Positions 3,249 to 50,467 of a DNA stretch of 64,000 nucleotides are shown here, piece by piece. The notes beneath the pieces were generated by a model, which was not told where the DNA came from, ran no database searches, and saw only the letters and a program-made list of their open reading frames with translations. The stretch spans positions 396,882-460,881 of the forward strand of contig NZ_CP046182.1 in the NCBI RefSeq assembly GCF_012567545.1, written 5' to 3'. This DNA is from Enterobacteriaceae endosymbiont of Donacia fulgens. GTDB lineage: Bacteria > Pseudomonadota > Gammaproteobacteria > Enterobacterales > Enterobacteriaceae. Both the position numbers and the translations under genes were made by a program. How positions within the stretch are numbered: position 1 is the first letter of the stretch; every line of letters starts with the position of its first letter.

Positions 3249-5282
3249 ATGAAAATCATTAAAGTAGTATTTAATAACACTATTATTTATAATAAATTTG
3301 ATTATTTATTATCTAAAAATATACCAATTTATATTGGATGCAGAGTAATAGTACCTATAAAAAAAAAAAATTATATAGGTATAGTAATAAAAATACAAAA
3401 TTATTCTAAAATATCCATAAAAAAATTAAAATTTTTATATAAAATTTTAGATAAAAAATCACTTTTTAATTCTTCAATTTTAAAATTTGCAAGTAAAGTT
3501 TCTAAATATTATAAATCTCCTATTGGATCAATTTTATTTCAAATATTACCAATTTTTTTAAGAAAAAAAAATAAATATGTTTTAAATTTAAAAGATAATT
3601 TACAAATTAATAAAATTAATATCACAAATAATAATAAAATAATAAAATTATATAGTTTGAAAAATATAGAAAATTTTAAAATACAAAATAAAAAAAATAA
3701 TATATTAAATTTATTCCAAAAAAAATATTTTCAACAAAATTTTTTTGTTTGGATTACACAAGATAATATTATTTTTCTTGAAAAAATAAATATTTATTTA
3801 GATCTTATAAAAATAATTTTATCTCAAAAAAAACAAATACTAATAATAGTACCTCAAAAATATAATTTTTTAAATTTATATCAATATTTTATGTCTAAAT
3901 TAAATATTTCAATTTGTTTATTATATTCAAATTTTTCAAATAAAAAAATATTATCTATTTGGGAAAATATAAAAAATGGTAAAATACCAATTGTTATTGG
4001 TACAAAATTTACTATTTTTACACAGTTTTTAAAATTAGGATTAATTATTTTAGTAGAAGAACATAATTTTATATATAAAAAAACAAATATATTTAAATAT
4101 AATATAAGAGATATTGCTATTTTAAGAGCAAAAATAGAAAATATACCAATAATATTAAGTTCTAAAACATTAAGTTTAGAAACATTATATAATGTTAATA
4201 TAAAAAAATTTAAATTTTTATTTAAAAATAATAAAAAAATATTATATAAAAATTTTTTTAAATTTATAATATTAGATATTAATAAACAAATATTACATTT
4301 AAAATTATTTTCTAAAATTTTAATAAAAAAAATACAAATATGTCTTGAAAATAATGAACAAGTTATTATTTATGATAAATATCAAGGTTATTCAAAATTA
4401 ATTTTATGTTTTTTTTGTAAAAAACCATTAAAATGTATTAATTGTAATAAAAATTATATTTTTTATAAAAAATTATGGAAATTATATTGTATATATTGTA
4501 AAAAAAATATTAGTATGTTAAATTATTGTCCTTTATGTAAAAAAAATTTTTTTATACCAATTGGTGTTGGAAATGAACAATTAATTCAATTTTTAAAAAA
4601 ATTATTTCCAAAAATATTAATCTTAAATATTAATAATAAAAATTTTTTAAAACAAACTTTTTTAATTAAAAATAATAAACCATCTATAATAATTTCTTCT
4701 CAAATTTTATATAAAGAATATTTTTATTTTTTAAAAAATAATTTAATTATTATTTTAAATATAGATAATATTTTTTTTTCAAAAAATTTTAGAGCAATAG
4801 AATATTTTTCCCAATATATTTTTAGTATATTAAATAATCATTTAGATATAAAAAAAAAAACAATTATCATTCAAACATATTATCCACAAAATAAAATTAT
4901 TAAAGAAATTTTTAAAAAATATAATACATATTTTGATATATCAAATTTTCTTTTAAAAGAAAGAGAAGTAATGTTATTACCTCCTTTTACTAATCATATT
5001 ATTCTAATATTAGAATCTAATAATAAGAAAATTTTATTAAATTTTTTAGATATTTTAAAAAAAAAAATTATGTTTAAATATATAAATGAAAAAGATTTTT
5101 TTATTATTGGTCCTTTATCATTAATACAAAATAAAAGAAAAGGATTATTTAGAAAACAAATTATTTTACAACATTTTCTTAAAAAAAGATTACAAATTAT
5201 TATAAAATATATTATTTCTATTTTTAAAAAAATTATAAATTTTAATAAAATAAAATTAATAATTAATGTCGATCCAATATAA
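3249..5282 (+). CDS. priA: PriA-like primosome protein with all helicase motifs lost
   Basis: PriA recognises stalled forks and D-loops and loads the replicative helicase. The 677-residue protein aligns with E. coli PriA (732) from the N-terminal DNA-binding domain (FDYLLSKNIPIYIGCRVIVP, about 18-37) to the last residues INVDPI, so identity is firm. The ATPase is dead by sequence. The P-loop is IIFLEKI at 174-180, with no glycine and Ile for Thr. DEEH is VEEH (269-272). The motif III, V (GTQMLAKG to SSQILYKE) and VI (arginines gone) segments have drifted. In contrast all eight zinc-ligand cysteines are kept as four CxxC pairs (about residues 395-440). I infer an ATP-independent scaffold for restart; slow decay towards a pseudogene is the alternative. 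It is divergent from rpmE. Confidence 0.93.
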   Translation: MKIIKVVFNNTIIYNKFDYLLSKNIPIYIGCRVIVPIKKKNYIGIVIKIQNYSKISIKKLKFLYKILDKKSLFNSSILKFASKVSKYYKSPIGSILFQILPIFLRKKNKYVLNLKDNLQINKINITNNNKIIKLYSLKNIENFKIQNKKNNILNLFQKKYFQQNFFVWITQDNIIFLEKINIYLDLIKIILSQKKQILIIVPQKYNFLNLYQYFMSKLNISICLLYSNFSNKKILSIWENIKNGKIPIVIGTKFTIFTQFLKLGLIILVEEHNFIYKKTNIFKYNIRDIAILRAKIENIPIILSSKTLSLETLYNVNIKKFKFLFKNNKKILYKNFFKFIILDINKQILHLKLFSKILIKKIQICLENNEQVIIYDKYQGYSKLILCFFCKKPLKCINCNKNYIFYKKLWKLYCIYCKKNISMLNYCPLCKKNFFIPIGVGNEQLIQFLKKLFPKILILNINNKNFLKQTFLIKNNKPSIIISSQILYKEYFYFLKNNLIIILNIDNIFFSKNFRAIEYFSQYIFSILNNHLDIKKKTIIIQTYYPQNKIIKEIFKKYNTYFDISNFLLKEREVMLLPPFTNHIILILESNNKKILLNFLDILKKKIMFKYINEKDFFIIGPLSLIQNKRKGLFRKQIILQHFLKKRLQIIIKYIISIFKKIINFNKIKLIINVDPI

Positions 5283-5340
5283 TTTTAAATATTAAAATAG
5301 AATTATTTAATATTTTATACTTAAATAAGGTAAATATTTT

Positions 5341-7224
5341 ATGTGTAATTTTAATAAATTTGATGTAATAGTTATAGGTGGAGGACATGCTGGAACTGAA
5401 GCTGCTATTGCTAGTGCAAAAATGCAAAAAAAAACTCTTTTAATTACAAATAATCTAGATACAATAGGGCAAATGTCTTGTAATCCGGCAATAGGAGGTA
5501 TTGGTAAAAGTCATCTAGTAAAAGAAATTGATGCATTAAATGGTATCATGGCTACTGCAATTGATTATTCTGGAATTAATTTTAAAATACTTAATAGTAG
5601 TAAGGGTCCTGCTGTTCAATCAACAAGAGCACAAGCAGATAGAGAGTTATACAAATCTCAAATTAAATTACTTTTAAATAAAGAAAAAAATTTATTTATT
5701 TTTCAACAAGAAGTAAAAAAAATTATAATTAAGAATTATAAAATAATAGGAATTATTACTAATAATAATGATATTATAAATACAAAAATTGTAATTTTAA
5801 CTACTGGTACTTTTTTAAATGGTAAAATTTTTATTGGATTAAATAATAAATTTAATGGTGGGCGAATTAATGATTCTACATCTACAGAATTAGCAAATTT
5901 TTTAAATGAATTACCCTTAAAAAAGGGAAGATTAAAAACAGGCACCCCCCCCCGTCTTGATAAAAGAAGTATTAATTTTTCAAAATTAGAAATACAAAAT
6001 AGTGATAATCCTTTACCTTATTTTTCTTTTATTGGTAATGCTAAACAACATCCTAAACAATTACCTTGTTATATTACATATACTAATAAAAATACACATC
6101 AAATAATAATAGATAATATTATTAAAAGCCCAGTATATAGTGGATTGATTAAAAGTAAAGGTCCTAGATATTGTCCCTCTATAGAAGATAAAATTATTAA
6201 ATTTCCTAATAAAGATAAACATCAAATATTTCTAGAACCAGAAGGTATATTTAGTTATGAAATTTATCCTAATGGTATTTCTACTAGTCTTCCTTTTAAT
6301 ATGCAATCTTCTATTATAAAATCTATTAAAGGATTAGAAAATGCATATATTACAAGACCAGGATATGCTGTAGAATATGATTTCTATGATCCTAAAGGAT
6401 TAAAACCAACTATGGAAAGTAAATTTATAAAAGGATTATTTTTTGCAGGACAAATTAATGGTACTACTGGTTATGAAGAAGCTGCTGCACAAGGATTAAT
6501 AGCTGGATTAAATGCTTCTCTTTTAATTGATAAAAAAAAAAATTGGTATCCATTAAGAAATCAAGCATATATTGGAGTATTAATAGATGATTTATGTACT
6601 TTAGGTACAAAAGAACCATATCGAATGTTTACTTCTAGAGCAGAATATAGATTACTTTTACGAGAAAATAATGCAGATATAAGATTAACAAAAATAGGAT
6701 ATAAATTAGGTTTAGTTGATAATTTACGTTGGCAAAAATTTAATGAAAAATTAGAAAATATAGAAAAAGAATATCAAAAAATTAAAAATTTTTATATTAA
6801 TTCTAATGATAAAGAAAATAATAAAAAAATAAATTCTTTATTAAAAAATCCTATTAAGGACCATATAAATGGTATAAATTTATTAAAACGTTCTGAAATT
6901 AATTATTTAGATTTAATAAAATTAAATATTTTTAATTTTAAAATAAAAAATTTAGAAATTATTAAATATATTGAAACAGAATTAAAATATGAAGGATATA
7001 TAAAAAGACAAGAAAAATTTATAAAAAAATTTAAAAAAAATGAAAAAATATTAATACCAATAAATATTAAATATTGTAATATAAAAAGTTTATCTCATGA
7101 AGCAATAGATAAATTTAACTTATATAAACCTTTTAATCTTGGACAAGCTTCTAGAATACCTGGTATAACACCTGCAGATATTTCAATACTATTAATTTAT
7201 TTATTAAAAATTAAAAATAGTTAA
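5341..7224 (+). CDS. mnmG: MnmG (GidA), tRNA U34 carboxymethylaminomethyl-modifying FAD enzyme
   Basis: With MnmE, MnmG installs the cmnm5 group on wobble U34 of several tRNAs, using FAD, NADH and methylene-THF. The 627-residue protein has the FAD loop [10 protein letters not shown] (13-22), the family signatures [36 protein letters not shown] and [16 protein letters not shown], and the C-terminal [10 protein letters not shown] that contacts MnmE; E. coli MnmG has 629. Its partner is mnmE at 43.1-44.5 kb. A run of nine C at 5945-5953 encodes T-P-P-R (202-205) with CCC codons, very unusual here. In E. coli rsmG and atpIBEFHAGDC lie between mnmG and glmU; here a glmU remnant follows directly. 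Confidence 0.98.
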
Positions 7225-18272: not shown

Positions 18273-18296
18273 AAAATTATTTATAAATAATTTTTT
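18273..18296. terminator. Palindrome with T tail between rplS and recD
   Basis: AAAATTATTT and AAATAATTTT flank a 2-base centre and are followed by TTTTTT in total. The structure overlaps the last codons of recD and lies 10 bp after the rplS stop. It is AT-only but placed where a bidirectional terminator is needed. Confidence 0.45.
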
Positions 18297-20148
18297 CTAT
18301 ATAATGAAGTATTTTTTTTTTAATATTAGAAAATCTTTTAATTTTTAATTTTATTGCTTTATAAAAAATTGATTTGTGACTATAAATATTTATTTTTTTT
18401 TTAGCTCTAGTAATTGCAGTATAAATTAATTCTCTAGTTAAAATAGGATAAAATTTATTTGGTAATACTAATGATATTTTTTCAAATTCTGATCCTTGAG
18501 ATTTATGTGTAGTTATTGCATAAGCTATATCATAAGGAGGTAAATTTTTGATAGATATCACTTGATATTTATCATTAGCTAATAAAAATTTTATTTTTAA
18601 TTTTTTATCATTTTCATCAAAAAAAGTGATTCCAATATCTCCATTAAATAAATTTAAAAAATTATTATTTTGGTTAATAATAATTGGTCTTCCTATATAC
18701 CAATTATGATATTTAATATTATTTATTAATATTTTTTTATTAAATAATTCTTGTTCTATAATATTATTAATTGTTTTTGTACCAAATAAACCATGTTTAA
18801 CTGCACATATAATTTGATAATAATTAAATTTTTGCAAAATATTTTTATGATTATGATTTTTTTTTAAAAAAATAAAATATTTTTTATACTCATTAATAAA
18901 TGAGTTAATCATGAATTTATAATTTTTTTCATTCATAATATTAATATAATTAATATCATTATATTTTTTTAATAAAAATAATTTTTTAATTTTTTTTATA
19001 TTACCTTTTTTAATCATTATAGCTAATTTATTAATACCAGAATTATTTGGATATCTATAATTATGTTGTAATACAGTAATAAAATTACGGAAAAAAAAAT
19101 TTGGAATATTATAATTTTCTTGTAATTTATTATTAGTTATACTATTTAACCATATAAAATATTTTCTTGTAAAAAAAAAATTTTTAAAATAACATAAATC
19201 TTTAAACATATTACCATACTCTATTGAAGGTAATTGATATTCATCTCCTAATAATATTAATTTAGTTTTTTTAGATAAAGATTTTAAAATAATAGACATT
19301 AAATTAAAATTAATCATAGATGCTTCATCTATTATTAATAGATCTAAATTTAATTTATTTTGAGAATTATATAAGGTATCTTCAGTATAGATTTTCATTT
19401 TTAATAAATTATGTATAGTAGTTGCTTTTTTTGGAATATTTTTTTTTTCGTTTTTATTTATTAAATTTAAAGATATTTTTTTAAAAAAGTTGTTTATAGA
19501 TTGAGTTAGTCTTACAGAAGCTTTACCAGTAGTTGCAACAACCCTAATTTTTAAAGGATTGTTAAAAATTTTTATAAATGTAAAAATTATTTTAGATATT
19601 ATACTTGTTTTGCCAGTTCCTGGAGATCCACTAATAATACTAATTCTATGTGTTAAAGCAGCACAAATAGCTTGTTTCTGAAAAAAATCATCTTTATTAT
19701 TATTAATAAATAAAAATTTTAATATATTTTTAATTTTATCTTGTTCTACTAACATACATTGATTTTTAAGAAAATTTTTTACTATTGTATTTTCTTCATC
19801 CCATATTTTATATAAATAAAGGCAATTATCTTCTAAAATAATAGGAGTAATTTTTTTACCATTACTAATAATTTTTTTATCTAAAAATAATATATTTTTC
19901 CAATTTGTAATTTTATTTATTTCTTTTATTTTTTTTATAAAAAATTTATTTTTTTGATTTTTAATATTTATATCTAAATATAATTTAGATATTGGTAAAC
20001 AAATATTACCTTTACTAATATTATTACTAAGTAATGTAATTGAATATTTTAAAAATTCTTGTTTCTTTGTTGTGAATATAGATGCAAAATAAAGATCAAT
20101 TAATCTAATAATACCTATTTCACATAATTTTTTTAAAAAATATTGCAT
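18277..20148 (-). CDS. recD: RecD, 5'-3' helicase subunit of exonuclease V
   Basis: RecD is the fast 5'-3' motor of RecBCD and activates its nuclease. The 623-residue protein (E. coli 608) keeps the SF1B helicase motifs: P-loop GSPGTGKT (174-181), Walker B LLIDEASMI, a GDEYQLPS motif III, and the C-terminal AITTHKSQGSEF and TAITRAKKKI. The N-terminal domain is divergent. It is the last gene of lgt-recC-recB-recD, 30 bp after recB. In E. coli ptrA lies between recC and recB; it is absent here. RecD looks functional. Confidence 0.96.
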   Translation of the reverse strand: MQYFLKKLCEIGIIRLIDLYFASIFTTKKQEFLKYSITLLSNNISKGNICLPISKLYLDINIKNQKNKFFIKKIKEINKITNWKNILFLDKKIISNGKKITPIILEDNCLYLYKIWDEENTIVKNFLKNQCMLVEQDKIKNILKFLFINNNKDDFFQKQAICAALTHRISIISGSPGTGKTSIISKIIFTFIKIFNNPLKIRVVATTGKASVRLTQSINNFFKKISLNLINKNEKKNIPKKATTIHNLLKMKIYTEDTLYNSQNKLNLDLLIIDEASMINFNLMSIILKSLSKKTKLILLGDEYQLPSIEYGNMFKDLCYFKNFFFTRKYFIWLNSITNNKLQENYNIPNFFFRNFITVLQHNYRYPNNSGINKLAIMIKKGNIKKIKKLFLLKKYNDINYINIMNEKNYKFMINSFINEYKKYFIFLKKNHNHKNILQKFNYYQIICAVKHGLFGTKTINNIIEQELFNKKILINNIKYHNWYIGRPIIINQNNNFLNLFNGDIGITFFDENDKKLKIKFLLANDKYQVISIKNLPPYDIAYAITTHKSQGSEFEKISLVLPNKFYPILTRELIYTAITRAKKKINIYSHKSIFYKAIKLKIKRFSNIKKKILHYIEKIIYK

Positions 20149-20178
20149 ATATTTTATTTTAATATTTTAAAAATAAAT

Positions 20179-23100
20179 TTAAACAAACAGTTGATTTAAT
20201 TTATTAATTAATTTTAAAGATGGTTTTGTTATCCAAATACCATTTTGATTTTTTTTATTATTAATTCCTCTAATATATAAATATATTACCCCCCCAAAAT
20301 GTTTTTTATAATTATAATTATTAATACGATATTTTAAATATTTATGTAAAGCTAATGAATAAATTTGATATTGTATATCATAACGATTGAAACATATATC
20401 ATTTTGAATATATTTTTTTTTATAATTTTTATAATTATTACCTAACCAAGTGGATTTATAATCTATAATATAATATTTTTTTCCCCATAAGAAAATTAAA
20501 TCAATTATACCTGATAAAAATCCTTCTATTACTTTAAATTTTAATTTATATAAATGACAAGAAATTAAATCATATTTACTTATAAAGTTATTATATTTAG
20601 TGGAAGAAAATGATTTTTTAATAGATAAATAAAATTTAAATTCTGTTTTTTTATTTTTATTTTCTATTTTATTTAGAATAATATTTTCATTACCTATTGG
20701 TTTCTTTAAAATATTATTAAACCAATTAGTTAGCATAATATGCCAAGTAAAATTAATATTATTTTTTATTAGTTCTTTTTTAATAAATTTTCTAGAAATA
20801 ATTTGGGTAAAATCTAGTTTTTCTAAAATATTATGTAATATAATTCCTATTTGTTTACCATGAGGAAAATTATATTGTGTTTTTTTTAATTTTTCTTTAT
20901 TTAAATTTGAAAATATATTTTTTAGATTAATATTTAAATAATTAAAATTAATATTTTGTTGTTTTTTTATCTTAGAAAAATTAGATATTGTTTTATTTTT
21001 AAAAAAAAAATTATTAATTTTCTGTGTAAATAATAATTTTTTTTTTTTTTTTTTTAAAATTTTATTATCTATTTTTATTAATTTTTTTTTTTTTACAATT
21101 TTAATCGAAATATCTTTATTTTTTAAATTATTTAAAATTTTTTCTAATTCTATATTAGAAATATTATTTTTTTTTTTAAGTAAAAAATCTAAAGAATTAA
21201 AATATTTTAAATATAAATTTAATTTTTTTAAGTTAAAAAATTTAATATTAGCAATACCAATACTACAATGGAAAATTGATCTTGTTAATGAAACATATAA
21301 TAATCTTAAATTTTCAGCAAGTGATTCTTCTAAAAAAAATTTTTTACTTTCTTCATCTTTTTTAAAATCTAAAATTAATTTAAAATTTTTTCTATCATGA
21401 TAAATGATAGCATCTTTATTTATAGATTCTATAATATTCGAAGAAATAAATGGTAACCAAACAATAGGAAATTGTAATCCTTTTGATTTATGTATTGTCA
21501 TAATTTTTATTTTATTAATATTATAATATAATTTTATTTGTTTATTTAATAAATTTTTATTAGTATGTATAATTTGTTCTGATAACCAATCTATAATTTG
21601 ATTATAATTTATAATATTTATACATGATGTTTGAATTAATTCTCCTAAATATAAAATATTTTTTATTTTTTTTGCTATAAAATTATTAATAAAATTTTCT
21701 TTATAAAAAATAGCATCTTTTATAAAAATTGTTTCTAACATAGTTAAAATACCATATTTCTCCCAAAGTAATTTATAATTAATAAATTTATTAATTATTG
21801 TACTTATATAATTTTTTTCTTTATTATCTATAAAAAAAGATAAATTAACATTAAATAATGCACTTGATAGAAGATTAATAATCTTTTGTTTATTTGGTTG
21901 TAAAATAGTTTTTAACAATAAAATTAGTTCTTTTGCTTCTTGTTTTTCAAATATATTGTCTGAATTAGATAAATAAATAGAAGGTAATTTGAATTTAATA
22001 AATTCTTTTTGTAAAATATATGCTTCAAAACGATTTCTTACTAAAACTGTGATATCTGAAATTTTAATTTTTTGATTTTTATTATTTTTTTGTAAAAATG
22101 CTTGATTTTTATTTCCTAAAATTATTAATTGACATATTTCATATGCACATGTATATGCTATTTTTTGTTTATATGAATTAATATCAATAATTTTATTAAT
22201 AAACCAGAAAGTAATCCCAGGTTTAATTTTTTTATTAATGATAAGATTATAGTTTAATTTTTTATTTGTATATCTAATAGGATAAAAAATAATATTTTTA
22301 AATAAAAAAGGATAAGTTCTATAAGAAAATATTTTATTTATACTATTTACCATAGTACTAGAAGAACGCCAGTTATTTTTTAATGTATAACGTTTTTTTA
22401 TTTCAAATGAAGCTTTTAAATAAGTAAAAATATCAGCTCCTCTAAAAGAATAGATAGATTGTTTTGGATCACCAATTAGTATAATTATACTATTTGATTT
22501 ATTAATATAAATTTTTTTTAAAATATTATATTGTTGTATATCTGTATCTTGAAATTCATCTACTAATATTATAGGAAATAATTTTTTTATATCTTTTGCA
22601 ATTTTTATACCATATGGGCTATTTAATCCTTTATTTAAAATAATTAATAAATCATTAAAACTTATTTCATTATTTTTTTCTTTTTTTTTTATTACATATT
22701 GATTTATATATTTAATAGCTTTTAAAATTATTAAAAATTTTAAATTATTAAATTTTTTTAAAAAAATATCTATATATTTAAATAAAATATATTTTGGTAT
22801 TTTAATATTATTAATTGTGTTATTAATTAATAATTTTTGAGAAAATTTAGATAATTCTTTAGGATAAAAATTATCTTTACTTTTTGTTATACTCCATAAA
22901 TTAATAATATTTATCCATTTATTTATTAAATTTTTATTATAAATATGTTTATTAACATTAGAATTAATAATAATGTTAAATATATTATTTTTATATTTTA
23001 TCCAATATTTTTTTATTATTTTAATATATTTTAAATTTTTATAAAATTGTATATAAAAATTTTTATTTTTAATTAGATATTTAATTTTTGGAAAAGGTTT

Positions 23101-23721
23101 TTTTAGTAAAAAAGGGCTTATTGTATTTAATAAATCAAAAGGAGATTTCCAATAAAAAAAAACTATTCTTGCTATTTTTTTTGGTAATTTATAAAAATAT
23201 TTTCTCCAAAAATTAATAGAAGCTTCTTGTTGTAAAGTTAATTCATCACTAATAATTTTTTTATTAGAAAAAAAATCATAAATTTCATAATTTTTAAAAT
23301 TTAAAATTTTTTGACAAAAAGAATGTATTGTATAAATAGATGCATTATTAATATTTAATTCAGCTTTTAACAATAAATTATTAGCTACTTTATAATCTTT
23401 AATTTCTTTTATAAAATTATTTATAATATCATATTTACTTTTTTTTTCTAAACATCCTTTTCTTAAAATATTAATACTTTTCTTTATTCTTTTACGTAAA
23501 TTTTGTGTTGCAAGGTCAGTAAAAGTTACTACTAAAATTTGTTCTACAGTTAATGGTAATACATTACAATTTTTTTGATGTAAACCTAAAAGCATTCTTA
23601 AATATAAGATAATAATAGTAAATGTTTTTCCAGTACCAGCAGAAGCTTCAATAAGATATTGACCTTTTAAATTTTCTTTAAATGGATCAAATTCTTTTAA
23701 TTTTATTAATTTTTTTATCAT
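20179..23721 (-). CDS. recB: RecB, helicase-nuclease subunit of exonuclease V
   Basis: RecB has the 3'-5' helicase, the only nuclease site of RecBCD and the RecA-loading surface; it starts repair of double-strand breaks. The 1180-residue protein has the same length as in E. coli. The N-terminal P-loop is ASAGTGKT (26-33), followed by VDEFQDTD, GDPKQSIYSFRGAD and the motif with MTIHKSKGLQFP. The C-terminal nuclease domain keeps H in GIILHNILEKLDF, D1074, D1087 and K1089 (IIDYKST). The linker before the nuclease domain holds a 19-A run (codons 889-895, in frame) and is poorly conserved, so slippage there could give helicase-only products. It starts 15 bp after recC. Confidence 0.96.
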   Translation of the reverse strand: MIKKLIKLKEFDPFKENLKGQYLIEASAGTGKTFTIIILYLRMLLGLHQKNCNVLPLTVEQILVVTFTDLATQNLRKRIKKSINILRKGCLEKKSKYDIINNFIKEIKDYKVANNLLLKAELNINNASIYTIHSFCQKILNFKNYEIYDFFSNKKIISDELTLQQEASINFWRKYFYKLPKKIARIVFFYWKSPFDLLNTISPFLLKKPFPKIKYLIKNKNFYIQFYKNLKYIKIIKKYWIKYKNNIFNIIINSNVNKHIYNKNLINKWINIINLWSITKSKDNFYPKELSKFSQKLLINNTINNIKIPKYILFKYIDIFLKKFNNLKFLIILKAIKYINQYVIKKKEKNNEISFNDLLIILNKGLNSPYGIKIAKDIKKLFPIILVDEFQDTDIQQYNILKKIYINKSNSIIILIGDPKQSIYSFRGADIFTYLKASFEIKKRYTLKNNWRSSSTMVNSINKIFSYRTYPFLFKNIIFYPIRYTNKKLNYNLIINKKIKPGITFWFINKIIDINSYKQKIAYTCAYEICQLIILGNKNQAFLQKNNKNQKIKISDITVLVRNRFEAYILQKEFIKFKLPSIYLSNSDNIFEKQEAKELILLLKTILQPNKQKIINLLSSALFNVNLSFFIDNKEKNYISTIINKFINYKLLWEKYGILTMLETIFIKDAIFYKENFINNFIAKKIKNILYLGELIQTSCINIINYNQIIDWLSEQIIHTNKNLLNKQIKLYYNINKIKIMTIHKSKGLQFPIVWLPFISSNIIESINKDAIIYHDRKNFKLILDFKKDEESKKFFLEESLAENLRLLYVSLTRSIFHCSIGIANIKFFNLKKLNLYLKYFNSLDFLLKKKNNISNIELEKILNNLKNKDISIKIVKKKKLIKIDNKILKKKKKKLLFTQKINNFFFKNKTISNFSKIKKQQNINFNYLNINLKNIFSNLNKEKLKKTQYNFPHGKQIGIILHNILEKLDFTQIISRKFIKKELIKNNINFTWHIMLTNWFNNILKKPIGNENIILNKIENKNKKTEFKFYLSIKKSFSSTKYNNFISKYDLISCHLYKLKFKVIEGFLSGIIDLIFLWGKKYYIIDYKSTWLGNNYKNYKKKYIQNDICFNRYDIQYQIYSLALHKYLKYRINNYNYKKHFGGVIYLYIRGINNKKNQNGIWITKPSLKLINKLNQLFV
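21037..21055 (-). repeat. A19 homopolymer inside recB
   Basis: Nineteen consecutive T on the plus strand make nineteen A in the recB coding strand, read as the last base of a Leu codon plus six Lys codons (residues 890-895). It is the longest homopolymer I noticed. It lies in the linker between the helicase and nuclease domains. Confidence 0.9.
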
Positions 23722-23736
23722 TTTATTAAATCTAAA

Positions 23737-26700
23737 TTAATTATTATAATATAATAAATCATTCATCCATTTTTGAATTAATTTTTTAATTTTTATCCAT
23801 TCTTTTTCATTTAAATTAAAATTTAATTTTTTAAAATATGGATCATTTTTTTCATTAATAAAGTTATTATTATTCCAATAATAGAAAAATTTTTTTTTTG
23901 CTTGTTTTTGTATTAATAAATCATTATTAATACATTTTTTTTTTTTATCATAACAAGTATTTATCCAAATCCAAGAACTTTTCATAGGTAAAAAGATAGG
24001 ATGATTTATACCAGACAAATAACCATTTATATATTTTTCTAATAAAAAAATAGCTTTATTTTTTGTTAAAAATTTAAAATTATATTTTGTTTTTTTTAAA
24101 CCATAAATAAATAAATTTATTTTTTTATTATCAATATTATTTGCACATAAAATTAAATATTTAATCCAAAGACTAATAATAGTTTTAATATCTATTATTT
24201 TAGGTTCAAATTTAATTAAACCTTTTTCATAATTAAAAAATTTTATTTTTCCTTTTAAAATAATATTTAAAATTTTAAAATTAATTGTATAAATCTTTTC
24301 TATATATTTATACTTCTGAAATTGATTATTAAACATTTGATTAATTTTATATATTTTTTCTTCCCACCATATTTCTCCATAATAACCATAAGGTAAAATA
24401 CCATTATTTAAATAAAAATAGTATAAATCATTAATGTTTTCATTTAAAATTAGTGTACGTAATATTTTTTTATTTATAATATATTCTTGTAAATAATTAA
24501 TAGTAAATGGTTCTGTATTAGATACTTTTATTTTATCCAAATTTTCTAAATATATTCTCAATCCTTGATTAAAATATCCTTTAATTGGATGTTTCCAAAA
24601 ATTAATTAAATTATTAATTTTTAATTTAATAATTTTTATTGGTTTATTTATAATAATTTTATTATTAACTATAACATCAAGTTTTTTTTTATTAAAAAAA
24701 TTAATATTTTTATATTTATAATTTCTATAAAAATATTTAATAATATTATTATTAATTATTTTTTTTTTAAAAAAATAATTTTTAGAAATATATGATAGTA
24801 ATTTTTTTACTATACTAGATAAATTATTATTAATTTGTTTATTATCAGTAAAACTAATAAATAATTTATTTTCTGTAGAAATAATTATTTTTAAAAATAA
24901 ATTTTTTTCTTTATCTAAATAATTATTTTTATAAATATTATTTTTTAATAAATCAAATGTAATAGGATATTTTTTTTTTGGAAAATAATCATTATTCATT
25001 CCAATTACAAAAATTTGTTTAAAAAATATATTTTGAAATATATTTAAAGGACAAAAATTAATCTTATTTATAGAAAATAAGAAATTTTCATTTTTTTTTT
25101 TAATAAAAAATTTAACTTTTTTTATAATTATTTTAATTGAAATTTTTTTTTTATATTTTATATCAATACCTTGATCAAGGAACAAAAAAATTTTATTTAA
25201 AATAAAATAGATATTTTTATCTATAAACTTATTTTTAGGAAAAAAATTTTGATAAAGTTTTAATAAAATATTTTTCCATTGTTTTAAAAAATATTTTTTA
25301 TTAAGTTTATTTTTCCATTTTTCTAATTGAATTAAAAAATAAAGAAATTTACCTATTAATTCCTTTGATAATCCAATAGATATATTATATGGAATTAAAT
25401 TTTTCCATTTTCCTATATTTTGATTTAAAGCAAATCCCAAAAATATACGATAAATACCTAATTTCCATGTATATTGATCTTTAGGTAAATTAATATTATT
25501 AAAATTTTTAATATTTAGACCATATTTAATTCCTAAATCTTTTATCCAATAATGTAAATATTCTAAATCATCTTTATTTAAAAGAAATTTATTAGATATA
25601 TAATCATCATCTAATAAAAAAAATATTTCTTTAGGAGTTAAATCTTTATAAGATATTTTTAATAAAAATAAAAATTTATTTAAAATATCTAAATTTTCTA
25701 TTTTATTCTGATTAGAATATATATTAATAGGTATATTAATATTTTTAAATATTGTATTAATATAAGGAATATATAATTTTAAATTAGGAGATAAAACAAT
25801 AATATCATGTAAAAAATAATCTTGATTATTTTTTAGAGTATATAGTATATTATTATATAATAATTCTGTTTCGGTATAAAGATCTTCACAGATATTTATC
25901 TGAATAGATTTATCTAAATAATTAATTTTTTTTTTATATTTTAAATTATTTTCATTTAAATATAAAATGTCATTTTTTATATTATCTAATAAACTTAGAT
26001 TTTTATTTTCTATAAAAGTTTCAATATATCTAGATGATAAATTTATTAATTTGTTTATATTATTTAAACAATAATTACCCCAAGAAAATAATAATGTATT
26101 AAAATTAACATTTTTTTTCTTATTAATATAAGTATATTTAGAAATATTACCCCAATAATATTTAGAAGGATTACATATTAAAATGTGTATTTCTATGTAT
26201 TTTTCTATTTTTTTTAATAAATTTAAATGTATTAAAGGAATATTTTGTATATCTAATATAAAAATTCTTTCTGGAATTAAATTATATTTAAATAATATAT
26301 TTTTTTTATATTTTTCATAAAAATAAAATAATTTACCATAATGCCATAATTTTTTATCTAAAGTATTTTTATAATATTTTAATAATGTTCTCCATAATTT
26401 AGCTTGCCATATTTGATGTTCATTATTTATAGTTAAAAAAAATTTTTTTTTTTCCCATAAAAATAATAATTCTGGTTTATATTTTTGATAATCATTATAT
26501 AAATTAGAAATTTGAGTAGATATTTGAAATAAATAATTAAAATTTTTAATTTTAGATCCAAATTTTTTTTTAAAATTTATAAATTCTTTTGTAGATATTA
26601 ATGTAGGAATTAATAATAATATTAACCAAACAATATTTTCCTTATATAAAATATTATTTTTAGATATATTAGGTACAATTTTTATAAAAGTATTCCAAAT

Positions 26701-26907
26701 AAATTTATCAAAAGTAATAAATTTAATATTACTATATATTCCTAAAATTTTTGAAAAATTAATTTTAATTAATTTAGAAAAATTTTTATGTTTATCATAT
26801 AAGATTATTTCTGGATTTAAAGGATTTTTTAAAGGATTTTTTTTAATTTGTATTTTTATTATATTTAATAAAATATTAATATTATTTGAATAATAGTTTG
26901 TAAACAT
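23737..26907 (-). CDS. recC: RecC, Chi-recognition subunit of exonuclease V
   Basis: RecC holds RecB and RecD together, splits the DNA strands and reads Chi through a degenerate helicase/nuclease fold. The 1056-residue protein (E. coli 1122) is rich in Lys, Asn, Tyr and Ile and weakly conserved. Recognisable stretches are RIFILDIQNIPLIHL, ILICNPSKYYWG, HDIIVLSPNL, NQNKIENLD, LLDDDYI, IFVIGMNNDYFPKK and the C-terminal KIKKLIQKWM. Its position between lgt and recB settles identity. It starts 6 bp after the lgt stop. Whether it still recognises the E. coli Chi octamer cannot be told; I noticed no GCTGGTGG in the window. Confidence 0.93.
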   Translation of the reverse strand: MFTNYYSNNINILLNIIKIQIKKNPLKNPLNPEIILYDKHKNFSKLIKINFSKILGIYSNIKFITFDKFIWNTFIKIVPNISKNNILYKENIVWLILLLIPTLISTKEFINFKKKFGSKIKNFNYLFQISTQISNLYNDYQKYKPELLFLWEKKKFFLTINNEHQIWQAKLWRTLLKYYKNTLDKKLWHYGKLFYFYEKYKKNILFKYNLIPERIFILDIQNIPLIHLNLLKKIEKYIEIHILICNPSKYYWGNISKYTYINKKKNVNFNTLLFSWGNYCLNNINKLINLSSRYIETFIENKNLSLLDNIKNDILYLNENNLKYKKKINYLDKSIQINICEDLYTETELLYNNILYTLKNNQDYFLHDIIVLSPNLKLYIPYINTIFKNINIPINIYSNQNKIENLDILNKFLFLLKISYKDLTPKEIFFLLDDDYISNKFLLNKDDLEYLHYWIKDLGIKYGLNIKNFNNINLPKDQYTWKLGIYRIFLGFALNQNIGKWKNLIPYNISIGLSKELIGKFLYFLIQLEKWKNKLNKKYFLKQWKNILLKLYQNFFPKNKFIDKNIYFILNKIFLFLDQGIDIKYKKKISIKIIIKKVKFFIKKKNENFLFSINKINFCPLNIFQNIFFKQIFVIGMNNDYFPKKKYPITFDLLKNNIYKNNYLDKEKNLFLKIIISTENKLFISFTDNKQINNNLSSIVKKLLSYISKNYFFKKKIINNNIIKYFYRNYKYKNINFFNKKKLDVIVNNKIIINKPIKIIKLKINNLINFWKHPIKGYFNQGLRIYLENLDKIKVSNTEPFTINYLQEYIINKKILRTLILNENINDLYYFYLNNGILPYGYYGEIWWEEKIYKINQMFNNQFQKYKYIEKIYTINFKILNIILKGKIKFFNYEKGLIKFEPKIIDIKTIISLWIKYLILCANNIDNKKINLFIYGLKKTKYNFKFLTKNKAIFLLEKYINGYLSGINHPIFLPMKSSWIWINTCYDKKKKCINNDLLIQKQAKKKFFYYWNNNNFINEKNDPYFKKLNFNLNEKEWIKIKKLIQKWMNDLLYYNN

Positions 26908-32902: not shown

Positions 32903-33376
32903 TTATAAATGAAGACGACTATGTGTAATTGCAATTGCTAATGCATCAGCAGCATCTTTTTTTGGATAAAAGGATAATTTTAACAACATAAATACTGTAT
33001 CTTGTACTTGTTTTTTTTTTGCATTACCAATACCAGCTACAATCATTTTTACTTTACTTGCTGAATATTCAAAAACAGAAAGATTATGATTTACAGCTGA
33101 TATTATTGCTGCACTTCTTGCATGACCTAATTTTAATGCAGAATCAGCATTTTTAGACATAAAAATTTGTTCTATAGCAAAATTATCAGGTTTAAATTTT
33201 TTTATTATTTTACTTATATTTTTATAAATTATTTTTAATCTTGTAGGAAAATCTTTAATTTTTAAAGTTAAAATACATCCACTATCAATATAAATAATCT
33301 TATTATTTTTGAGTTTTTTAATTAAACCATATCCTGTAATTCTAGATCCTGGATCAATACCTAAAATTATTGTCAT
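32903..33376 (-). CDS. ruvC: RuvC, Holliday junction resolvase
   Basis: RuvC cuts Holliday junctions made during recombination. The 157-residue protein (E. coli 173) keeps the acidic active site: D in [14 protein letters not shown] (residue 8), E in FAIEQIFM, and two Asp in [14 protein letters not shown] near the C-terminus. Order is aspS-yebC-ruvC as in E. coli, but ruvA and ruvB, which should follow ruvC, are replaced by convergent crr. Unless they are elsewhere, RuvC would act without its branch-migration motor. Confidence 0.97.
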
Positions 33377-46565: not shown

Positions 46566-46718
46566 TTATTTTGATATTTTATCTGATATACTTAAATATA
46601 TACGATGTTTAGCACGACGACGATTTATTATTTGTCTTCCATTTTTTGTTTTCATTCTATTTCTAAAACCATGAGATCTTTTTTTTTTTAATATAGATGG
46701 TTGAAAAGTACGTTTCAT
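46566..46718 (-). CDS. rpmH: Large ribosomal subunit protein bL34
   Basis: bL34 is a short, very basic 50S protein. The 50-residue frame begins [19 protein letters not shown] and continues [19 protein letters not shown], diagnostic of bL34; E. coli has 46 residues, and here a short Ser/Ile/Lys-rich tail is added. It is first in rpmH-rnpA-yidC-mnmE. It diverges from dnaN across 171 bp; in E. coli dnaA lies between rpmH and dnaN. Confidence 0.96.
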
Positions 46719-46837
46719 AAAATTATACTTATAAATATTTTACAATATATCAATTATTACATAATTTTTATATTTAATAAATTATTTTTTATAAATTTTT
46801 TAATTTTAAATTTTAGTAATTAAAAGTTTATATATGT

Positions 46838-46843
46838 TATAAT
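46838..46843 (+). promoter_or_regulatory. Possible -10 element of the dnaN promoter
   Basis: A perfect TATAAT followed by AACG lies 46 bp before the dnaN start, in the rpmH-dnaN gap. No convincing -35 element is seen at 16-18 bp, and no DnaA-box-like sequence (TTATNCACA) is present in the gap. Weak candidate. Confidence 0.25.
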
Positions 46844-46889
46844 AACGAATAAAGATTTTTTATTATAATTTTTTTTTAAAAATAAAAAA

Positions 46890-48014
46890 ATGATAGAAAA
46901 TAATATTATTATTAATCGAGAGTTATTAATTAAACCATTAAAATATGTAACAAATATTATTAATAATAAATCTATATATCAAAATATTAGTAATATTTTA
47001 ATAGATATTTTAGATAATGGTTTAATTTTGTTTAAAAGTACTAATTTAGAAATTGAAATTTCATCATTTATTAAAAATATAAATAATAAAAAAAAATATT
47101 CAATTATAATTGAAGGGAAAAAGTTTTATAATATATGTCGTAGTTTACCTAAAAATCATGATATAAATATATTATTTAGTAATAATAAAGCTATTATATC
47201 ATCACAAAATTGTTATTTTAGTATAGCTACTTTACCAGCAAATAATTTTCCTACTATAGATTTTATAAAATCTGATATAGAATTTGATCTTCAACATAAA
47301 ACAATAAAAAAATTTATATATGCTACTTATTTTTCAATAGCAGATAATGATGTAAGAAAATATTTAAATGGATTATTATTACAAATTAAAAATAATATTT
47401 TAAATATTGTATCAACTGATGGGCATAGATTATCTATTTATACTTATTTAATAAGTAAAAATATTATTAACTATTATGCTATAATTCCTAAAAAAAGTAT
47501 TTTTGAATTATCTAAATTACTTAATAATACTAATGAATTAATTAATATTAAAATTAATAAAAATAATATTTGCTTTATTTTTAATAATTTAAAATTTATA
47601 TCTAAATTAATTGAAAATAATTTTCCTGATTATGAAAAAATTATACCTAAATTTTTTTATAAAGTTATAAAAATTAATCGTATAGAATTTAAAAATTCTT
47701 TAAATAGGATTTCTATCTTAGTTAATGAAAGAACTAAAGGAGTAACTTTATTAGTTAATAATAATTATTTAAAAATCTCTAGTATTAATATAAATAATGA
47801 AAAAGCAGAAGAAATATTAAAAATAGAAAAATATAATAATGAAAAAAAAAATAATATTAATATATCTTTAAATATTAATTATTTAATTAATGTCATTAAT
47901 ATATTAGAAAGTGATATAATTAAAATTTCTTTTATTGATAATATTTCTAGTATTAAGATAGAAGATTGTTATAAAAAAAATAAAATTTATTTAATCATGC
48001 CAATGAAAATTTAA
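46890..48014 (+). CDS. dnaN: DNA polymerase III sliding clamp (beta)
   Basis: The clamp tethers DNA polymerase III to DNA. The 374-residue protein (E. coli 366) has the three-fold clamp architecture. Recognisable parts are NRELLIKPLKYV, IVSTDGHRLSIYT, IIPKKSIFELSKLL, FPDYEKIIP and the C-terminal YLIMPMKI, equivalent to the VVMPMRL end that forms the partner-binding pocket. dnaA upstream and recF downstream are both missing compared with E. coli; gyrB begins 38 bp later. Confidence 0.97.
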   Translation: MIENNIIINRELLIKPLKYVTNIINNKSIYQNISNILIDILDNGLILFKSTNLEIEISSFIKNINNKKKYSIIIEGKKFYNICRSLPKNHDINILFSNNKAIISSQNCYFSIATLPANNFPTIDFIKSDIEFDLQHKTIKKFIYATYFSIADNDVRKYLNGLLLQIKNNILNIVSTDGHRLSIYTYLISKNIINYYAIIPKKSIFELSKLLNNTNELINIKINKNNICFIFNNLKFISKLIENNFPDYEKIIPKFFYKVIKINRIEFKNSLNRISILVNERTKGVTLLVNNNYLKISSININNEKAEEILKIEKYNNEKKNNINISLNINYLINVINILESDIIKISFIDNISSIKIEDCYKKNKIYLIMPMKI

Positions 48015-48052
48015 AATTATATTTATTTTTTATAAAAAAATGAGAGTTTAAT

Positions 48053-50467
48053 GTGACAAATAAATATTATAATGCATCAAGTATTCAAATTTTAAAAGGA
48101 TTAGATGCAGTAAAAAAAAGACCAGGTATGTATATTGGAAATACAGATGATGGGACAGGGTTACATCATATGGTTTTTGAAGTTATAGATAATGCGATAG
48201 ATGAATCTCTTGCTGGTTTTTGTAAAAATATAAAGATTATCATTCATAATGATGATTCTATATCTATTATTGATGATGGAAGGGGTATTCCTACAGATAT
48301 ACATAAAGAAGCACAAATTTCAGCAGCTGAAGTAATTATGACTATATTACATTCAGGAGGTAAATTTAATAATAAATCATATAAATTATCAGGAGGATTA
48401 CATGGAGTAGGTATTTCAGTTGTAAATGCTTTATCTAGAAAACTAGAATTAATAATTAAAAGAAATGGAAAATTATATAAACAATTATATTGTTATGGTA
48501 TTCCTCAAAATAAATTAAAAAATATTGCTAATAGTACTACTACCGGTACTCATATTAGATTTTGGCCTAATTTTAATATTTTTAAAAATATTCAATCTTT
48601 TGATTATAAAATTTTATCTAAAAGATTAAGAGAATTATCATTCCTAAATTCAGGATTATTTATTTCAATAAATGATATAAGAATTAATAAATCTAATTCA
48701 TTTCAATATAATGGTGGTATAAAAGAATTTATAAAATATTTAAATAAAAATCAAAATATTATTCATAATAATATTTTTTATTGTTATAATAAAAATAGTA
48801 AAATAAATATAGAAATTGCTATGCAATGGAATAATTCTTTTAAAGAAAGAATATATTGTTTTACAAATAATATACCTCAAGAAAGTGGAGGTACTCATTT
48901 ATCTGGATTAAAAGCAGCTATAACACGTACAATTAATTTATATATAGATAAAGAAAAATATAATAAAAAAAAAAAATATATTAATATTACGGGAGAAGAT
49001 ACTAGAGAAGGATTAATAGCTATTATATCTATTAAAATTTCAAATCCTAAATTTTCTTCTCAAACTAAAGAAAAATTAATTTCATCAGAAATAAAATCTT
49101 TAGTAGAATGTTATGTTAATCAACAATTAATGTTTTTTTTATTAGAAAATCCTAATGATGCAAAAAAAATAATAGAAAAAATTATACATGCAGCAAAAAT
49201 AAGAGATGTTGCAAGAAAAACAAAAGAAATAATAAAGAATCAAAATATTTTTAGTATATCTAGACTTCCAGGAAAATTATCTGATTGTCAAGAAAATAAT
49301 CCAAAATTATCTGAAATTTATTTAGTAGAAGGAGATTCTGCTGGAGGATCAGCAAAACAAGGAAGAAATAGAAAAAATCAAGCAGTATTACCATTAAAGG
49401 GTAAAATACTTAATGTAGAAAAAGCTGGGTTTAATAAAATTATTTCTTCACAAGAAATTATTACATTAATTACTGCTTTAGGATGTAATATTGATAAAAA
49501 CCAATATAGTATAGATAAATTAAGATATCATAATATCATTATTATGACAGATGCAGATGTAGATGGAGCACATATTCGTACTTTATTATTAACATTTTTT
49601 TATCGTCAAATACCTCAAATAATAGAAAAAGGATATGTATATATTGCACAACCTCCATTATATAGAATTAAAAAAGGAAATAAAAAATTATATATTAAAA
49701 ATAATGAAGAAATGGAAATTTTTACATTAAATATAGCTTTTAATAAAGCTATGTTTTTTTTTAAAAATTCAAAAAAGATTTTATCAGATAAAAAATTATT
49801 AATATTAGTTAACAAATATAATTATATTAAAAAAATCATAAAATTTTCAAAATACATTTTTTCTGATAAAATATTATTTTCATTATTATATAATCCAAAA
49901 TTAGAAAAATTAAATGACTATAATAATGTCAAAATATGGTTAGATAATTTATTATTATTTTTAAATAAAAAATATATTAATATTAATTTTTCAGGAAATA
50001 TAAATAAAAATATAAAACAAAATATTTTTGAACCAATAATTTATGAAAATAAATATGGTAATATAAATAAATATCAATTAAATTATGACTTTTTTATTAG
50101 TAATGAATATAAAAAAATATGTTTATTAGGAAATAAATTACTTTCTTTAAAAGAGAAAAAAATTTTTCGTGTAGAAAAAGGGGAAAAATATAAGAATATT
50201 AATTCTTTTGAAGAAGGTATCGAATGGTTATTAAAAGAATGTAAAAAAAAATTTATTATACAAAGGTATAAAGGATTAGGTGAAATGAATCCAACCCAAT
50301 TATGGGAAACAACTATGAATCCTTTAACTCGTAATATGTTACAAGTTACAATTAAAGATGCAAAAAAAGCAGATAAATTATTTTCAACTCTTATGGGTGA
50401 TGAAGTAGAACCTAGAAGGTTATTTATAAAAAATAATGCGTTAAAAGTAATTAATATCGATATTTAA
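48053..50467 (+). CDS. gyrB: DNA gyrase subunit B
   Basis: GyrB provides the ATPase and TOPRIM parts of gyrase, which supercoils DNA. The 804-residue protein matches E. coli (804). The GHKL ATPase has VFEVIDNAIDES, DDGRGIPTDIH and GGLHGVGISVVNALS; the TOPRIM has LVEGDSAGGSAKQGR and IMTDADVDGAHIRTL; the C-terminus is RYKGLGEMNPTQLWETTM. The start is GTG with GAGAG upstream, the only non-ATG start I am confident of in the window. Confidence 0.98.
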   Translation: MTNKYYNASSIQILKGLDAVKKRPGMYIGNTDDGTGLHHMVFEVIDNAIDESLAGFCKNIKIIIHNDDSISIIDDGRGIPTDIHKEAQISAAEVIMTILHSGGKFNNKSYKLSGGLHGVGISVVNALSRKLELIIKRNGKLYKQLYCYGIPQNKLKNIANSTTTGTHIRFWPNFNIFKNIQSFDYKILSKRLRELSFLNSGLFISINDIRINKSNSFQYNGGIKEFIKYLNKNQNIIHNNIFYCYNKNSKINIEIAMQWNNSFKERIYCFTNNIPQESGGTHLSGLKAAITRTINLYIDKEKYNKKKKYINITGEDTREGLIAIISIKISNPKFSSQTKEKLISSEIKSLVECYVNQQLMFFLLENPNDAKKIIEKIIHAAKIRDVARKTKEIIKNQNIFSISRLPGKLSDCQENNPKLSEIYLVEGDSAGGSAKQGRNRKNQAVLPLKGKILNVEKAGFNKIISSQEIITLITALGCNIDKNQYSIDKLRYHNIIIMTDADVDGAHIRTLLLTFFYRQIPQIIEKGYVYIAQPPLYRIKKGNKKLYIKNNEEMEIFTLNIAFNKAMFFFKNSKKILSDKKLLILVNKYNYIKKIIKFSKYIFSDKILFSLLYNPKLEKLNDYNNVKIWLDNLLLFLNKKYININFSGNINKNIKQNIFEPIIYENKYGNINKYQLNYDFFISNEYKKICLLGNKLLSLKEKKIFRVEKGEKYKNINSFEEGIEWLLKECKKKFIIQRYKGLGEMNPTQLWETTMNPLTRNMLQVTIKDAKKADKLFSTLMGDEVEPRRLFIKNNALKVINIDI

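Follow-up and report, generated by a model that had tools for sequence, protein, structure and literature searches.

In the symbionts of reed beetles the motor of PriA is, by its sequence, dead: the motifs for ATP binding and hydrolysis are gone in all 24 genomes sampled. PriA is maintained in these genomes by purifying selection in every domain, with omega values from 0.07 to 0.30. Such a combination, motor motifs lost and protein maintained, characterizes a pseudohelicase. We consider it probable, at roughly 0.6, that this PriA is kept as an ATP-independent platform, which would bring the replicative helicase DnaB to D-loops and forks by direct contact. It would be expected neither to hydrolyse ATP nor to unwind DNA.

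The window, that is, the whole stretch of DNA analyzed, corresponds to the last 64 kb of the 460,881-bp chromosome of the Donacia fulgens symbiont, whose assembly contains 465,858 bp in 2 contigs. Table 1 of PMC7289800 gives a chromosome of 460,881 and a plasmid of 4,977 for this symbiont, and our sample of 24 reed-beetle symbiont genomes corresponds to 24 of the 26 species of that paper. The features of priA and its surroundings are the following:

3249..5282, + strand: priA, 677 amino acids, ATG start, single open frame; helicase motor predicted from sequence to be non-working
3249..3563, + strand: 3'-DNA-binding domain, residues 1-105 approximately (Pfam match)
3768..3788, + strand: place of motif I (Walker A), IIFLEKI, residues 174-180
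4053..4064, + strand: place of motif II, VEEH (DEEH expected), residues 269-272
4158..4169, + strand: place of motif III, SSKT (GSAT in E. coli), residues 304-307
4407..4538, + strand: zinc region, eight cysteines at 387, 390, 396, 399, 414, 417, 427 and 430
4695..4718, + strand: place of motif V, SSQILYKE (GTQMLAKG in E. coli), residues 483-490
4824..4847, + strand: place of motif VI, SILNNHLD (QVAGRAGR in E. coli), residues 526-533
4983..5276, + strand: PriA C-terminal domain, residues 579-676 (Pfam PF18074)
5283..5340, no strand: gap of 58 bp between priA and mnmG (5341-7224, +)

The product of this gene is a PriA protein. It exceeds the cut-off of the equivalog model TIGR00595 (273.8 bits against 230.35, E 2.4e-81), with a match which begins only at model position 10, beyond the P-loop. 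The Pfam domains PriA_3primeBD (PF17764) and PriA_C (PF18074) are both found over their cut-offs; the other NCBIfam PriA models match under their own cut-offs. Residues 15-677 align in phmmer with the solved PriA chain 6dcr (E 3e-95), in agreement with the earlier note, which had aligned the protein to the last residues of PriA. The resemblance to the PriA of E. coli and K. pneumoniae (PDB 6dcr, 8fak, 4nl4) thus extends from end to end and includes the 3'-binding and C-terminal domains and the eight zinc cysteines, but those proteins have working SF2 motifs and an intact winged helix.

Motor motifs and binding residues

The drift of the P-loop and of motifs II, III, V and VI had been described in the earlier note, and we find IIFLEKI and VEEH at the residues it gave. 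The same situation is found throughout the genus. Motif I (GxxxxGK[ST]) is lost in 24/24 reed-beetle symbionts, and no GK[ST] is present anywhere in any of their PriAs. All 30 intact reference PriAs contain [AG]xxxxGK[ST], a difference beyond chance; these references were taken as the highest-scoring proteins for the PriA model among 99 genomes and are therefore intact by selection. The position of the Walker lysine is occupied by K in 13 of the 24 proteins, outside a GxGKT context, and the threonine which should follow is lost in 23. In motif II, the aspartate is kept in only two genomes, the last E in all and H in 22, so that EEH is found in 22/24. Four genomes keep the alanine of motif III, and T358 is present in 23; this motif reads GSAT in the symbionts of Plateumaris rustica and P. 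sericea, and SSKT, SSNT or similar in Donacia. The glycine of motif V (G538) is kept in none. The arginine of motif VI (E. coli R584) is N in 24/24, and the QxxGRxGR pattern of active SF2 helicases is missing. Since motifs I and VI are missing throughout the genus and motif III is partly kept, the simplest reading is that the first two disappeared before the genus radiated.

The regions involved in binding present a different picture. The PriA frame is open in all 24 genomes, and each protein keeps the eight zinc-ligand cysteines, which extends to the whole genus what had been noticed in the Donacia fulgens symbiont. The GVGNEQL stretch, noticed along with them, is present in this symbiont but gone in the five Plateumaris symbionts, so it cannot be considered a constant trait of these proteins. 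Among F16, G37 and K61, which we take to be residues of the 3'-end pocket, K61 is kept in 23/24 and F16 in 17/24. D17, a residue of this pocket according to PMC4129139, is kept in 22/24. In the SSB pocket, Y87 and K371 are kept in 24/24, and R698 is K or R in 23/24. Some losses count against a binding platform: G37 of the 3' pocket and the tryptophan of the SSB pocket are lost in 24/24, and Q702 remains in just 13/24.

The protein could also be kept for another binding job: it might cap or protect 3' ends and D-loops, or keep other enzymes away from them. The persistence of D17, K61 and the zinc ligands would suit such a job, as would the fact that the loading partners we have searched for are undetected. 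On the other hand, the zinc region, which in E. coli PriA is needed for primosome assembly, has the lowest omega in the protein, and Deinococcus PriA binds DnaB without PriB or DnaT. We regard this alternative as rather unlikely.

Selection on the domains of PriA

Codon models were fitted to 24 sequences with kappa fixed at 4, on alignment columns occupied in 80% or more of the sequences. Omega was obtained from a likelihood profile, since free IQ-TREE fits became stuck at omega 1 and kappa 1 (the zinc region in both sets; lobe2a, lobe2b and the C-terminal domain in the Donacia set). Each line below gives omega in the 24 species, followed by the amino-acid tree length relative to the 3'-binding domain (taken as 1), in the intact references and in the genus:

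3'-binding domain: 0.13; 1; 1
Lobe 1: 0.10; 0.40; 0.99
Lobe 2, first part: 0.20; 0.71; 1.44
Zinc region: 0.07; 0.46; 1.08
Lobe 2, second part: 0.13; 0.42; 1.09
C-terminal domain: 0.20; 0.89; 1.11
Winged helix: 0.25-0.30 (the highest; fitted separately with a laxer column filter); 1.26; 2.24
Whole PriA: omega 0.13

Doubling the log-likelihood difference from omega 1 gives at least 89 for each fitted domain of the 24-species set. In the set of 16 Donacia species, omega is equal or higher (0.10-0.25), with a similar order of domains. A neutral simulation (a single one, on the same tree and with strong AT bias) was fitted best at omega 1.0 and almost equally well at 0.85; base bias therefore does not explain the low values. 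With the assumed base bias, about 820 stop-making changes would be expected over the tree if the gene were neutral; no internal stops are observed. Purifying selection thus acts on every domain. The earlier note had named relaxed selection over all domains and frameshifts in sister strains as signs against its reading: there is no uniform relaxation, and none of the 24 frames is broken. The ATP-independent role which it suggested fits these results, a motor dead by sequence in a protein maintained in 24 species with an omega of about 0.13 and open frames.

Its further suggestion, that only the zinc and DNA-binding scaffold is kept, is too strong, because the helicase lobes are constrained like the 3'-binding domain: their omega (0.10-0.20) is similar to the 0.13 of that domain and tighter than in the C-terminal domain. 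A part of it holds when conserved residues are counted, that is, those conserved in 27 or more of the 30 intact references. On average 61% of them are retained in the 3'-binding domain, against 40% in lobe 1 and 27% and 39% in lobe 2. The zinc region retains just 36%, the C-terminal domain 43% and the winged helix 16%.

With the 3'-binding and C-terminal domains as a yardstick, the rate of the lobes is some 2 to 2.6 times that found in intact PriAs. This shift would be compatible with a release from catalysis, and much of it is due to the 3'-binding domain, which evolves slowly in the genus but rapidly in the references. It cannot be taken as proof of a release from catalysis only: the zinc region has shifted as much as the lobes.

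The same data have to be weighed against the idea that PriA is turning into a pseudogene, the unneeded motor having been lost first and the remainder following. The winged helix is eroding, the rate of the zinc region has risen as much as that of the lobes, and omega is higher in PriA (0.13) than in the neighbouring mnmG (0.05), a faster evolution which also counts against the platform. Outside the genus, the PriA of genome G053 has no 3'-binding domain, and some small relatives (G029, G030, G033, G041, G044 and G082) show a weak PriA match or none. However, the 24 open frames, an omega well below 1 in every domain, invariant zinc cysteines and the lack of the many stop-making changes expected under neutrality all speak against decay. 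The codon models make this idea improbable.

As for mnmG itself, its frame has 786 aa in the symbiont of Donacia bicoloricornis (L055) and 621-633 aa in the other 23, which may correspond to an upstream in-frame start.

Partner genes and the proposed role

The window contains other genes related to recombination and replication:

18277..26907, - strand: recD, recB and recC, open frames; RecD and RecB over an NCBIfam cut-off
32903..33376, - strand: ruvC, over its NCBIfam cut-off
46719..46889, no strand: gap of 171 bp between rpmH (46566-46718, -) and dnaN (46890-48014, +), dnaA missing

RecC matches along most of its length, with a score under its cut-off (501.5 bits against 582.9). In related bacteria dnaA is located between rpmH and dnaN. 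We have also noted that recF is absent between dnaN and gyrB, which are at most 113 bp apart (48015-48127 of the window).

Profile searches of the 24 genomes detect DnaB, RecA and RNase HI in all of them. DnaA is found in none, a firm negative, as all 17 non-genus genomes of the same search give a match, 16 of them over cut-off. RecG is also found in none: the best match in the genus has 34.5 bits, and the weak matches to its model correspond to PriA and to frames of about 490-590 aa (in the Donacia fulgens symbiont, a DEAD-box protein). As far as the profile models can tell, the PriA-PriB-DnaT primosome of E. coli is absent, PriB, DnaT and DnaC being found in 0/24 genomes each. The reliability of these negatives varies. 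No genus genome exceeds the PriB or the PriC cut-off, and both negatives are fair, each model being over cut-off in 21 of 60 genomes. The PriB model gives a single weak match in 23 of the 24 genomes (SSB, in the Donacia fulgens symbiont) and none in G013. The DnaT negative is soft, with only 6 positives in 60 genomes. That of DnaC is also soft: weakly matching stretches are found in frames of at least 417 aa, and the only clear positive among the non-genus genomes of that search is a 255-aa frame of G024. The SSB tail is DDIPF or DDLPF in all seven SSBs recognised, from nine loci.

The E. coli mutant PriA K230R cannot unwind DNA and retains primosome assembly. The symbiont protein (motor dead, replisome assembly expected) would be comparable to this mutant, priA300, as the earlier note had proposed. 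The analogy fails in one respect: the mutant has a single substitution and acts in a cell with PriB, DnaT, DnaC, PriC, DnaA and RecG, all six undetected in the symbionts. One might suppose that PriB, DnaT and DnaC are present, too diverged for the models, and that PriA works through them as K230R does. Small proteins of a very AT-rich genome can evade profile models, and the DnaT and DnaC negatives are soft, but all three proteins would have to be missed, and the PriB and PriC models, which succeed elsewhere, find nothing over cut-off in the genus. This makes the supposition very unlikely.

Hardly credible at all is a motor still functional with unorthodox motifs, in spite of the persistence of EEH and T358: the Walker context, R584 and the motif II aspartate are lost as described above, while RecB, RecD, MnmE and the DEAD-box protein of the Donacia fulgens symbiont keep their P-loops, as does DnaB in the four loci read among the 24 genomes.

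The platform we propose would work as follows. RecBCD and RecA would make D-loops; the motor-less PriA would recognise the 3' end and the branch of a D-loop or fork, and would then recruit DnaB through direct contact. We suggest a direct contact because PriB, DnaT, PriC and DnaC, the intermediaries in E. coli, are undetected. Of the possible DnaB recruiters covered by our searches (PriA, PriB, PriC, DnaT, DnaC and DnaA), PriA alone was detected. It therefore probably has a role in replication restart, and it may also take part in chromosome starts. A further step would make PriA the sole recruiter of DnaB, and hence the factor which starts every round of chromosome replication in place of DnaA, DnaC and the PriB-DnaT path, by an ATP-free, recombination-linked process; this seems doubtful to us.

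Loss of the motor may have been tolerated, or even favoured, where RecG is absent. According to PMC5055574, over-replication in E. coli lacking RecG needs the PriA helicase, and priA300 is a strong suppressor of recG. Since the helicase drives over-replication in such cells, its loss may have been acceptable or useful in symbionts without RecG. According to PMC4631800, PriA K230R still allows growth without an origin in E. coli dnaA rnhA tus rpo* mutants on minimal medium, with substantially reduced growth on LB, and origin-independent growth of dnaA recG cells requires the PriA helicase. This requirement is the opposite of what would be expected from a symbiont with neither RecG nor a PriA motor. 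The symbionts have RNase HI and no detected RecG, so origin-less growth of E. coli indicates a possibility and is partly contrary to our reading.

The presence of RNase HI in 24/24 genomes disfavours simple R-loop-driven starts, and we have rejected R-loop starts due to a lack of this enzyme. As for the place of an origin, oriC adjoins mnmG in E. coli. The 58 bp between priA and mnmG leave no space for it on this flank. Origins distributed along the chromosome were also considered and rejected: cumulative GC skew, calculated on sampled stretches and uncorrected for gene strand, has its minimum near 390 kb and its maximum near 110 kb, a hint of a single start region which is weakened by a second, less deep dip at about 426 kb. 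The minimum lies about 7 kb to the left of the window and is a possible replication start, with a possible end at the maximum, in a genome where DnaA is undetected.

Known systems and other genomes

PriA pseudohelicases are already known, and so are DnaA-less symbionts which retain PriA. A natural motor-less PriA as such is not new: according to PMC4504706, biochemical work of 2015 proved that the PriA of Deinococcus, whose genome has no clear priB and dnaT, lacks ATPase and helicase activity, binds forks and makes direct contact with DnaB. The symbiont PriA resembles this Deinococcus-Thermus pseudohelicase in its poor motifs I and II, in remaining otherwise recognisable as PriA, and in the lack of clear priB and dnaT. 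There are also differences. In Deinococcus the GKT lysine is replaced by arginine, whereas the reed-beetle symbionts have lost motifs I, V and VI and their winged helix is eroding. DnaA, DnaC and RecG are also undetected in the symbionts.

Moranella endobia is described in PMC3620526 as lacking dnaA, dnaT and dnaC and having priA, priB and recG. It is thus similar to the reed-beetle symbionts in retaining priA after these losses, unlike them in retaining priB and recG. This case counts against our reading, as it suggests that loss of partners may not have to be followed by loss of the motor.

The titles and abstract beginnings listed by our searches of open-licence papers mention no motor-less symbiont PriA. 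The words replication, DNA repair and recombination do not occur in the main text of the reed-beetle genome paper, nor do dnaA, priA, recA or replication in that of PMC12508126. How replication starts in DnaA-less symbionts is called an open question in PMC4285127. In a clade of 24 genomes where DnaA and the searched loaders are undetected, a motor-less PriA under selection offers a single protein to test. The clade may be seen as a natural experiment which asks what use PriA has once unwinding of DNA is lost.

A scan of our collection gave 86 PriA loci, of which 80 were retained; motif I was readable in 79, kept in 75 and lost in 4, those of the Donacia piscatrix symbiont and of three Candidatus Lightella neohaematopini (L129, L147, L154). 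Reduced genomes such as Wolbachia, Vesicomyosocius and Holospora are among those which keep it. In the search of 99 genomes, our own included, the PriA match begins beyond the P-loop in the 24 genus members, in a Lightella genome (G028, locus L056) and in G053 (locus L057). PriA is broken or partial in G051, G072 and G089, and several more genomes have no PriA-length match.

Lightella (L056) and G053 resemble the genus in having lost motif I, in keeping the zinc cysteines and in lacking a DnaA over cut-off. Unlike the genus, Lightella has a RecG-like frame (595.6 bits, cut-off 659.4) and DDEH as motif II, and G053 has no 3'-binding domain. The RecG-like frame of Lightella, with the motor lost, counts against our reading, and RecG loss fails as a general cause of motor loss.

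A search for DnaA covered 14 relatives (13 with genomes not exceeding 2 Mb, the small ones included) and gave no match over cut-off in G028, G053, G056, G052 (where there is a fragment), G029, G030 and G082. DnaA loss is also weak as a general cause of motor loss: PriA is intact in G056, where DnaA is undetected, and in G052, with its DnaA fragment, and the opposite case is found in G038, which has DnaA and a partly drifted PriA.

The PriA frame of G053 has 622 aa, with all eight zinc cysteines and no 3'-DNA-binding domain. In this genome a 247-aa frame is weakly matched by the DnaA model, and DnaC is possible.

A PriA tree which includes 8 of the 24 genus members places the motor-less lineages and G038 in one cluster, with 88-100% support and long branches. 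A grouping on such branches would be compatible with one loss of the motor or with several. In G038 (locus L058, on a 0.98-Mb chromosome) DnaA is kept and the motor of PriA is partly drifted, with GVINSGKT, HEEQ and ISSF in its motifs. This PriA is possibly an intermediate stage of motor loss.
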